Assembly (NCBI RefSeq): GCF_027474405.1 | Contig: NZ_CP114871.1 | Coordinates: forward strand, 1,993,001-2,057,000 | Length of the DNA stretch: 64,000 nt | Direction: 5' to 3' | Source of the DNA: Caulobacter sp. NIBR2454 | Lineage (GTDB): Bacteria; Pseudomonadota; Alphaproteobacteria; Caulobacterales; Caulobacteraceae | Shown here: positions 6,491 to 64,000 of the stretch, piece by piece | Layout of the letters: every line of letters begins with the position of its first letter | How positions within the stretch are numbered: the stretch's first letter is position 1 | The notes under the pieces: model-generated | Seen by the model: the letters and a program-made list of their open reading frames with translations, nothing else | The model's database searches: none | What the model was told of the DNA's origin: nothing | Made by a program: the position numbers and the translations under genes

Positions 6491-7348
6491 TTAGCTGGCG
6501 GCCGGCTCTTCAGCGACGGCTTCGTTCGCTTCAGCGGTCGCTTCTTGAGCAGCGGCCGGAGCCTCAACCGCGGCGGCGGCCGGAGCTTCCGGGGTCAGTT
6601 CGCGGGCCAGGGCCGGCTCAACCGGAGCCACCGAGGCGCCCAGATCGACGCCCGAAGCGGCTTGGCCAGCGGCCAGGCCGTCCAGAACGGCGTCGGCGAT
6701 CAGGTCGCAGTACAGCTGCAGAGCGCGGGCGGCGTCATCGTTGCCCGGGATCGGGTAGGTGATGCCGTCCGGGTCGCAGTTGGTGTCGAGGATGGCGACG
6801 ACCGGGATGTTCAGCTTGCGGGCTTCAAGGATCGCGATGGCTTCCTTGTTGGTGTCGATCACGAACATGATGTCGGGAATGCCGCCCATGTCCTTGATGC
6901 CGCCCAGCGACAGCTCCAGCTTGTCGCGTTCGCGCGTCAGCTGCAGCAGTTCCTTCTTCGAACGGCTGCCCGGGGTGTCGAGCATGCCTTCGAGTTCGCG
7001 CAGACGCGCGATCGAACCGGAGACGGTGCGCCAGTTCGTCAGGGTGCCGCCGAGCCAGCGGTGGTTGACGTAGTACTGAGCGCAGCGCTTGGCCGCCGTG
7101 GCGACCGGATCGGAGGCCTGACGCTTGGTGCCGACGAACAGCACGCGGCCGCCCGAGGCGGCGACTTCACGCACCTTCACCAGAGCCTGGTGAAGCAGCG
7201 GGATCGATTGCGACAGGTCGATGATGTGGATGTTCGACCGCGAGCCGAAGATGTAGCGGTCCATCTTCGGGTTCCAGCGGTGGGTCTGGTGACCGAAGTG
7301 CGCGCCAGCTTCGAGCAGCGAACGCATAGAGAATTCGGGAAGCGCCAT
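6491..7348 (-). CDS. rpsB: 30S ribosomal protein S2
   Basis: S2 is a small-subunit ribosomal protein needed for S1 binding. The start region [20 protein letters not shown] and the signatures [19 protein letters not shown] and [20 protein letters not shown] are all present. At 285 residues it is longer than E. coli S2. The excess is an Ala/Glu/Pro-rich acidic tail from about residue 226 to the end, which is low-complexity and likely disordered. It leads the rpsB-tsf-pyrH-frr block and is preceded by a ~250-bp non-coding interval with a promoter candidate. Confidence 0.98.
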
Positions 7349-61006: not shown

Positions 61007-62164
61007 ATGGACGAAGAAACCCGTCTGATCCGCGCTGGCGCCAAAATAGGCGCCTTGGCCCGCACGGTGAACCCTCCGGTTCAGCGCGGTTCGACCGTCC
61101 TGATGCCCGACGCGGCGTCCCTCTACGACGATGGACAAAAGACCTACGGCCTGGAAGGTTTCGCCTCGCACGACGCTCTCGCCGAAGGTCTGTGCGCCCT
61201 GGAAGGCGCCAGGGACGTCCAACTCTACCCCTCGGGCCTCGCCGCGATCACAGCGCCGCTGGTCGCCCTGCTCAAGACCGGCGACGACGTTCTGATCGTC
61301 GACAGCGTCTACAAACCCACCCGCCGCTTCGCGGGCGACGTCCTTGCCCGCTTCGGCGTCTCGGTCCGCTACTACGATCCTGCCCTCGACGCTGACAGCC
61401 TGATGGCCCTGGTCGAGCCGGCGACGCGGCTGATCCTGCTGGAGGCCCCCGGCTCGTTGACCTTCGAGATGCAGGACGTGCCCGCCATCGCCGCAGCGGC
61501 CAAGGCGCGCGGGGTCCTGACCATGATAGACAATACCTGGGCCGCCGGACTGCTGTTCAAGCCGCTGGCCCACGGCGTGGATATCAGCGTCCAGGCCCTC
61601 ACCAAGTACGTCGGCGGCCATTCGGACCTGCTTATGGGCTCGGCCGCCACGGTCGATCCGGAGCTTGGCCGGCTACTCAAGGCCGGCTTCACCAACGCCG
61701 GCTGGGGCATCTCGCCCGACGACGCCTATCTGGCCGTCCGGGGCCTGCGCACGCTCAAGACCCGCCTCGACCGCCATGGCGCGAGCGGACTGGCCGTGGC
61801 CCGCTGGATGGAGCGCCAGCCGGAGGTCGTGCGGGTCATGCACCCTGGTCTGGAGAGCGATCCGGGTCACGCCCTGTGGAAGCGCGATTTCAGCGGCGCC
61901 TGCGGCCTGTTCGGCGCCGTCCTGCGGCCTGCCTCGAACAAGGCGGTGCTGAGCTTCCTCGACGCGCTCGAACTGTTCGGCCTAGGCTTCTCTTGGGGCG
62001 GCTACGAGAGCCTGGCCATCCACTGCGACCCGCAGGTGCGCTCCAGCCGCCCTGGCCTGGACCTTGGCGGCCCGCTGATCCGCCTGCATGTGGGGCTTGA
62101 GGGGCCTGACGACCTGATCGCTGACCTGCGCCGCGCCCTGGACGTCTACGCGGAACATTTCTGA
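61007..62164 (+). CDS. metC: Cystathionine beta-lyase
   Basis: The PLP enzyme splits cystathionine to homocysteine, pyruvate and ammonia in methionine synthesis. The 385-residue protein shows LYPSGLAAITAPLVALLKTGDDVL, YDDGQKTYGLEGF, and the PLP-Lys region DISVQALTKYVGGHSDLLMGS. It is divergent from the binding-protein gene over an 82-base gap. No SAM riboswitch seen upstream. Confidence 0.92.
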   Translation: MDEETRLIRAGAKIGALARTVNPPVQRGSTVLMPDAASLYDDGQKTYGLEGFASHDALAEGLCALEGARDVQLYPSGLAAITAPLVALLKTGDDVLIVDSVYKPTRRFAGDVLARFGVSVRYYDPALDADSLMALVEPATRLILLEAPGSLTFEMQDVPAIAAAAKARGVLTMIDNTWAAGLLFKPLAHGVDISVQALTKYVGGHSDLLMGSAATVDPELGRLLKAGFTNAGWGISPDDAYLAVRGLRTLKTRLDRHGASGLAVARWMERQPEVVRVMHPGLESDPGHALWKRDFSGACGLFGAVLRPASNKAVLSFLDALELFGLGFSWGGYESLAIHCDPQVRSSRPGLDLGGPLIRLHVGLEGPDDLIADLRRALDVYAEHF

Positions 62165-62266
62165 ACCGCGGCCCTTCCGCGCAGCTAACCCGCGTCAACC
62201 CTATCGCGACCTTTTTGCGCTAAGGACCCTGTTGAACGGGCGAAAGCCCGCCTCTGGGGATGCGCC

Positions 62267-63010
62267 TTGGCCGCCTATACGTTCAGAACGACCAACGTCG
62301 AGACCGCGTTCAAGAACGCCTTGCGCGTCACAAGCCTGACGCCTGAGCTGGCCAAAAGCGCGGCGCTGGTCACGACGTCGGTGGCGCTGGACGGCTGGAC
62401 CCCGCGTCAGGTCGCTTGGCAGATGTTCGACGTCACCAAGCAAACCACCTCGGTCGCCTTGGGCGCCTATCAGTTCTTCACCGGCCTGACCCCGACGGCG
62501 GCGGGCCTGGACTGGCTGGTCAATTCGCCCAGCAACCTCACCGACCTGAACGACGGCTACTACACCCGCTTCACCCTCGAAAACCGCTACATCAACTTCG
62601 CGGCCAACCTCGGGATCGTCGGCGAGGGGCGCGACGTCTTCGCCGCCGCTTACAAACCCCTGACCTTCGCCCAGGCGGTGGAGAAGGCCTACGACACCAT
62701 CATCGGCTTTCCCTATGCGCTTGGTGCGGGGATCGAGCCGACCGACGCCCTGATCGACATCGTCGGGCGCGAGGCCTACTTCAAGAACTTCGCCGCCACC
62801 CGCATGCCGGCCTACGATCAGGATCTGGCCAGCAAGGCCGCCATGGTCGGCTACATCATGGCCGAGGCCATCAAGGCCGAGGTCGGCGTGTACGCCCGCG
62901 CCATTGAGAACTTCTACCTCGACATATCCGACGGCTCAGCCGAGCATCACGTCAGTCTGGTGGGGGTCTACGGACCCGACTCGCCGATCGACGACCTGGG
63001 CTGGGGCTGA
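62267..63010 (+). CDS. Stand-alone RsaA N-terminal (S-layer anchoring)-domain-like protein
   Basis: The 247-residue protein matches, from memory of the RsaA sequence, the first ~240 residues of the Caulobacter S-layer protein, the part that binds LPS O-antigen. Shared blocks at residues ~68-147 include YQFFTG, AAGLD, DLND, ENR-x-INF and AYD-x-IIG, with ISDGS near the end matching LSDGA. It stops at the NTD boundary and lacks the calcium-binding lattice domain and the C-terminal type I secretion signal. No Sec signal peptide. Start is TTG (62267) with GGGGA upstream. Confidence 0.85.
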   Translation: MAAYTFRTTNVETAFKNALRVTSLTPELAKSAALVTTSVALDGWTPRQVAWQMFDVTKQTTSVALGAYQFFTGLTPTAAGLDWLVNSPSNLTDLNDGYYTRFTLENRYINFAANLGIVGEGRDVFAAAYKPLTFAQAVEKAYDTIIGFPYALGAGIEPTDALIDIVGREAYFKNFAATRMPAYDQDLASKAAMVGYIMAEAIKAEVGVYARAIENFYLDISDGSAEHHVSLVGVYGPDSPIDDLGWG

Positions 63011-63029: not shown

Positions 63030-63725
63030 GTGGCGCTCGCCGACCTCCGCACCCGATCCGTCGTGACCCTGCTTGCGGGCCTGGCCGCGCTCGGCGGCGT
63101 CGCGGGCTGCGCCTATGTCGCCCCGCCCCAGACCTTGGCCGAATCCGTCGCCGCCGATCCCATGCTGCGCGGACGCCTTGGCGACGGCCCTCGCATGCGT
63201 CGCCTGACTGACGACGACTTCCTCGGCCGTCCCATGGATAGCGCCATCCTGCGCCAGGTCCGCGCCGCCATGTCGGGCGGCGAGCGCGAATGTCTCGCCC
63301 AAGCCGTCTATTACGAAGCCCGCGGTGAAAGCGAGGCCGGCCAGGCCGCCATCGCCGCCGTGGTCATGAACCGTGTGCGCAGCCCGCGCTATCCCAAGTC
63401 CGTCTGCGAAGTGGTGTTCCAGGGCGCGCCGCGTCGCGGCTGCCAGTTCAGCTTCGCCTGCAACGGCGCCATGCTTGCGACCCCGCCGCGCGGCGCCGCC
63501 TGGCGCAAGGCCCGCGATGTCGCCGACGCCGTCCTGGCGGGGCAGGCTGGCCACGAGGTCGGAAACGCCCTCAGCTTTCACGCTGACTACGTGAATCCGT
63601 CCTGGGCGTCCGTTCTGCCTCGCATCACCCAAATCGGCAGCCACAAGTTCTATGGCGCGGCGAAGAAGGTGCGAGTGGTAGAGCGCACGCTCGAACTTCC
63701 CGAACCCTCGACCACCATCGAATAG
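63030..63725 (+). CDS. SleB-type cell-wall hydrolase, lipoprotein
   Basis: The 231-residue protein has a Hydrolase_2 (SleB) domain: CLAQAVYYEARGESEAGQAA with the catalytic Glu, VVMNRVRSPRYPKSVCEVVF, and GCQFSFACNG. Family members cleave peptidoglycan. It starts at GTG (63030) with AGGGGA upstream, 19 bases after the RsaA-like gene. A lipobox VAGC at Cys27 makes it a probable envelope lipoprotein. Confidence 0.88.
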   Translation: MALADLRTRSVVTLLAGLAALGGVAGCAYVAPPQTLAESVAADPMLRGRLGDGPRMRRLTDDDFLGRPMDSAILRQVRAAMSGGERECLAQAVYYEARGESEAGQAAIAAVVMNRVRSPRYPKSVCEVVFQGAPRRGCQFSFACNGAMLATPPRGAAWRKARDVADAVLAGQAGHEVGNALSFHADYVNPSWASVLPRITQIGSHKFYGAAKKVRVVERTLELPEPSTTIE

Positions 63726-63779: not shown

Positions 63780-64000
63780 ATGACCCTGATCCGCCCCCTC
63801 ACCCACGCCGCCATCGTCGCTGTCGCCCTTTTCACCGTCAGCGCCTGTAGCGATGACTCCGGCAAGGCCCAGAAGACCCAGGGCAAGATCGAGTCCGGCG
63901 TCGGCTCGCTCACCGGCAACGAGGAGCTGAAGCGCGAGGGCAAGAAGAATGAGGTCGTTGGCGGCGTCAAATCAGCCGGCAGCGAGCTGAAGGGCGCGAT
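63780..64000 (+). CDS. CsbD-like lipoprotein (3' end cut by window)
   Basis: At least 73 residues are visible from the ATG at 63780, with a GGAG ribosome-binding site. A signal peptide ends in the lipobox VSAC (Cys23), then a Lys/Glu/Gly-rich CsbD-type sequence (KAQKTQGKIESGVGSLTGNEELK) follows. CsbD proteins are stress-associated in many bacteria; a lipid-anchored form is less usual. The C-terminus lies outside the window. Confidence 0.8.
   Translation, partial: MTLIRPLTHAAIVAVALFTVSACSDDSGKAQKTQGKIESGVGSLTGNEELKREGKKNEVVGGVKSAGSELKGA

Follow-up and report, generated by a model that had tools for sequence, protein, structure and literature searches.

The window analysed here is a stretch of 64,000 nucleotides from Caulobacter sp. 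NIBR2454 (contig NZ_CP114871.1, positions 1,993,001 to 2,057,000), and near its end lies a gene for a protein that holds a complete copy of the N-terminal domain (NTD) of the surface-layer (S-layer) protein RsaA and no cargo. We refer to this gene and its product as the free gene and the free protein. Their features within the window are as follows.

62267..63010, + strand: the free RsaA_NTD protein, 247 residues, with a TTG start
62444..62974, + strand: match to PF19198 (RsaA_NTD) in a profile search, residues 60-236
62504..62575, + strand: counterpart of the Ca2+-binding loop of RsaA (RsaA residues 77-100)
62975..63007, + strand: C-terminal tail, residues 237-247, with an end point common to most proteins carrying a C-terminal NTD

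The sequence-only reading of this locus had described a free-standing RsaA-type anchoring domain, and both a profile search and a structural comparison bore this out. The free protein scored 187.6 bits against PF19198, for which the curated cut-off is 27, and it has the fold of the RsaA NTD, with 37% identity in a structure alignment (PDB 6t72) and the same domain boundaries. In the Ca2+-binding loop, as delimited in the excerpted text of PMC6978808, three of the four RsaA aspartates are retained (D79, D90 and D93) and D83 is replaced by asparagine, which is also found at this position in 16 of 23 domains of the N-terminal class described below. The NTD of RsaA is followed by a lattice domain (residues 250/251-1026), whereas the free protein stops 8 residues past the domain with no C-terminal lattice or RTX (repeats-in-toxin) domain, and a profile search found no RTX repeats anywhere in it. 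As far as the profile score and the loop aspartates go, the refuting condition set by the sequence-only reading did not arise.

A survey of 61 Caulobacter genomes, sampled from a larger group, returned 238 PF19198 matches in 23 of them (143 in 19 genomes and 95 in 4). The NIBR2454 genome has 27: 17 at the C terminus of longer proteins, 8 at the N terminus, the free domain and one truncated copy. The ‘N-terminal’ domain of RsaA stands mostly at the C terminus, as a surface-sorting module for a range of cargos. Among the cargos of the C-terminal class are M10/serralysin-type proteases, bacterial Ig domains, FG-GAP repeats, RTX repeats and a lipase-like domain; the N-terminal-class proteins are 476-689 residues long, with RTX repeats in one. 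The C-terminal class was defined as ending fewer than 45 residues beyond the end point of the free domain, so that the result is the tightness of the ends and not the class itself: 16 of the 17 C-terminal-class proteins of NIBR2454, 64 of 68 such frames in a set of related loci and 76 of 78 such proteins among the matches listed from the similarity search described below end within 10 residues of that point. Among the 238 matches, a complete domain in a frame shorter than 300 residues was found only in the free protein and its three close orthologues, other short frames having been set aside as partial profiles, some of which sit where a contig ends or adjoin another partial match. Two more candidates were rejected, a 304-residue frame (L040/L185/L202) that runs off its contig and has a linker after the domain, and a front-truncated frame of 204 residues (L058). 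NTD genes also stand in arrays in NIBR2454 (C1, L009-L027), three of the N-terminal class at C1:378-383 kb and three of the C-terminal class at C1:397-402 kb. Two relatives (L056 and L111) lie on contigs labelled as Tabrizicola and Rhizobiaceae metagenome-assembled genomes (MAGs), reflecting either horizontal transfer or a binning error.

The same survey, which the sequence-only reading had proposed, identified close orthologues of the free protein in 4 of the 61 genomes, NIBR2454 included; the other three are 77-79% identical, and two of their loci (L033 and L034) match by coordinates Caulobacter segnis strain FS and an uncultured Caulobacter MAG. All four proteins are exactly 247 residues long, start with TTG and share a C-terminal end pattern, and in each genome the gene starts 102-117 bp past metC and ends 19-23 bp before a gene for a cell-wall hydrolase. 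Nei-Gojobori omega values for the six orthologue pairs were 0.08-0.30 for the free gene, 0.06-0.10 for metC and 0.10-0.19 for the hydrolase gene, which indicates purifying selection on the free gene. Judged from its sequence, the gene looks functional rather than broken, in contrast to the truncated NTD copy of the same genome (C1:3202756), a 186-residue frame that lacks the front of the domain. A cytoplasmic relic, as suggested earlier, or a spurious open reading frame would fit a protein with no recognisable export signal, but we consider either very improbable in view of the omega values, the fixed length, start, ends and gene order in four species, and the well-supported clade of free proteins described next.

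A similarity search restricted to proteins whose length is 0.55-1.75 times that of the query, with the best 120 of 157 matches considered, found at least seven proteins of 237-242 residues that begin and end like the window protein; their sources are jgi or ena, and their contigs span 0.9 to 69 kb. When P0011 and P0009 served as queries in family searches, each over 390 genomes with up to seven candidates scored per genome, the four orthologues were the only frames shorter than 300 residues at E <= 1e-45 among the candidates scored. In a tree of 139 selected domain rows, which included 22 of 46 free-class rows and left out partial domains and the G013 orthologue, ten free proteins formed a clade with support 99/87, namely the window protein, two of its orthologues, P0004/P0009 and P0005/7/11/13/15. 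All ten have Arg47, a residue found in 5% of domains elsewhere, and Asp242 is conserved in the clade and present in 7% elsewhere. The other members are only 45-51% identical to the window protein, which suggests that the free form is older than the four species, with the tree being unrooted and its midpoint root serving for drawing only. Twelve of the 22 free rows fall outside the clade, some of them possibly contig fragments, and the free label needs eight changes on the tree, which points either to repeated origins of free rows or to fragments.

Seven C-terminal domains, taken from proteins or frames 404-617 residues long, join the free clade in the tree (98/84), and the free form may have originated from domains of this type. 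The same grouping would be expected of a C-terminal-NTD protein that had lost its passenger and was still exported without a selected role, but this explanation appears unlikely to us given the age of the free form on the unrooted tree, the purifying selection and the identical ends. Two near relatives of the clade occur in NIBR2454 (L009:3105-4448, 448 residues, and L011:4162-5373, 404 residues); their N-terminal parts had no Pfam match, and genes like them stand side by side elsewhere (G009:C4:57-59 kb and G013:C1:2825-2828 kb). In open-licence papers we found no description of free RsaA NTD proteins.

No Sec-like segment was detected in the free protein, for which the highest 12-residue hydropathy within the first 45 residues was 1.28, compared with 2.29 for a lipoprotein and 3.08 for a solute-binding protein used as controls; the test is crude, in that 2 of 26 other NTD proteins reach 2.18 and 2.63. 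A single type I ATP-binding cassette (ABC) exporter gene in the NIBR2454 genome exceeds the PrtD-type cut-off. It is preceded by Wzm/Wzt-like ABC genes and the gene for a 689-residue NTD protein and followed by genes for HlyD and GDP-mannose 4,6-dehydratase, and the locus, which also encodes a methyltransferase and a glycosyltransferase (L217, G000:C1:307000-322000), is likely an S-layer/O-antigen locus. In phmmer comparisons, the matches of three N-terminal-class proteins to RsaA extended no further than residue 244-304; a full homologue of the RsaA lattice was not otherwise sought.

The sequence-only reading had held that a protein without the RTX lattice domain or a type I signal cannot follow the RsaA route, and this claim did not stand. 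The excerpted review PMC3034196 reports that the C-terminal half of SapA, an S-layer-associated metalloprotease, resembles the RsaA N terminus and that SapA appears to be type I-secreted without a clearly identifiable signal; its C-terminal NTD has the same end point as the free protein, and the 17 C-terminal domains of NIBR2454, 16 of which lie in proteins ending within 10 residues of it, argue in the same direction. Similarly, the passages of PMC8277102 on HasA describe this haemophore as a type I substrate that, like the free protein, has no RTX domain, and its exporter ABC protein as having no N-terminal domain; HasA differs in its ligand, and no homology is claimed. The free protein is not a SapA equivalog: it aligns with positions 411-637 of the 644 of the SapA model (NCBIfam NF051884), scores 142.7 bits against 1200 and has no protease part. 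Deletions at the C terminus of SapA reportedly abolished secretion by the RsaA transporter. By analogy with SapA and HasA, RsaA-type export would be the simplest reading for the free protein, and the absence of RTX repeats no bar to it. The tail may form part of a type I secretion signal.

We therefore favour the explanation that the free protein is a cargo-less surface protein, exported by an RsaD/E-type system and bound to the smooth lipopolysaccharide (LPS) of its own cell. The product would be a single Ca2+-dependent O-antigen-binding domain that leaves the cell independently of Sec through RsaD/E-type type I secretion, for which the PrtD/HlyD-type machinery described above may serve, and that probably attaches, once secreted, to sugars on the surface of its own cell. 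Binding of Ca2+ and O-antigen as in RsaA is what would be expected of such a domain once exported. Settled on smooth LPS, it would occupy O-antigen and add neither lattice nor enzyme, as the most reduced of the many proteins that share this surface-sorting domain, and could act as a coat, spacer, competitor or gap filler. In the excerpted accounts of two-component archaeal S-layers, SlaB is likewise an anchor with a gene separate from that of the lattice protein; no homology to SlaB is claimed, and the other Caulobacter NTD proteins differ in carrying their own anchor.

Several observations weigh against this explanation. The free gene evolves faster than its metC and hydrolase neighbours, and with orthologues in 4 of 61 genomes and no PF19198 match in 38 of the 61, the genus can dispense with its function. 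The tail (..DSPIDDLGWG) holds no recognised type I signal, and the exporter parts covered here are the two matching TIGR01842 (764 bits) and TIGR01843 (437 bits), both over cut-off. In addition, D30 and K142, which form a salt bridge between neighbouring NTDs in RsaA, are alanine and threonine in the free protein, which makes packing as in RsaA doubtful. A more specific version of this explanation, retained from the sequence-only reading, is that the exported protein holds O-antigen sites and thereby limits, spaces or terminates the binding of other NTD proteins. The genome has 25 further NTDs that are complete or nearly so (17 C-terminal and 8 N-terminal), which would share its class of ligand, and Arg47 together with the missing D30 and K142 may hint at altered contacts, but D30 and K142 are not general across the family either; we regard this modulator role as possible, though less probable than surface binding as such.

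The genes and sequence elements around the free gene are the following.

61007..62164, + strand: metC (cystathionine beta-lyase), the upstream neighbour, with matches in 59 of 61 genomes
62192..62226, + strand: upstream block kept in the four orthologous loci, putatively promoter-like
62237..62250, + strand: inverted repeat CGGG-N6-CCCG directly before a Shine-Dalgarno-like stretch, in all four loci
63030..63725, + strand: Hydrolase_2 (SleB-like) cell-wall hydrolase, 19 bp downstream of the free gene

The hydrolase resembles SleB, scores below the cut-off of the SleB model and has, in the window copy, a lipobox-like VAGC; it is likely co-transcribed with the free gene. Hydrolase matches at E <= 1e-20 occur one to three times in each of the 61 genomes, and the close orthologue (85-86%) is confined to the four that have the free gene. 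In 26 metC loci of genomes that lack the free gene, neither a free domain nor the hydrolase was found in the flanks (up to 1.5 kb per side), and 8 of them retain the upstream solute-binding gene. Beyond the hydrolase lies a gene for a 79-residue lipoprotein-like protein (L028:6781-7123, of which 6781-7000 is window 63781-64000), presumably CsbD-like, and then tRNA-Arg; the 79-residue gene had no match in the three other orthologous loci compared, and the distance between the hydrolase and the conserved gene that follows ranges from about 0.45 to 3.7 kb across the four genomes. A speculative possibility, which we rate as rather unlikely, is that the anchor and the co-linear hydrolase lipoprotein form a wall-remodelling pair at growth zones, in which the anchor would shield exposed O-antigen at sites of wall opening. 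The constant 19-23 bp gap and the restriction of close hydrolase orthologues to the same genomes are consistent with it, as are the gaps in the C. crescentus S-layer and the new insertion at regions of envelope growth described in the excerpted PMC11026435. However, metC (59 genomes at E <= 1e-130) is 91-92% identical to that of the window within the four-genome group and at most 71% outside it, so that the four genomes belong closely together and a single event may account for the co-occurrence. Just as tentatively, free RsaA-type domains might be a class of their own, secreted and dedicated to coating O-antigen; in this clade, together with a co-transcribed wall-hydrolase lipoprotein, they would cover or pre-load nascent O-antigen at envelope growth zones, the two-gene unit running both wall opening and closure of the S-layer gap.

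Among the structural models for the attachment of a Gram-negative S-layer to LPS, RsaA is a leading one, and the literature on it, in the excerpts consulted, regards the anchor as belonging to RsaA. Natural cargo-less versions of its NTD exist, as the survey reveals. A natural minimal protein of this kind would allow a direct test of whether the domain alone holds the information for export and O-antigen binding; it could also test whether cells tune S-layer assembly by means of free anchors, and might serve as a small native display tag.
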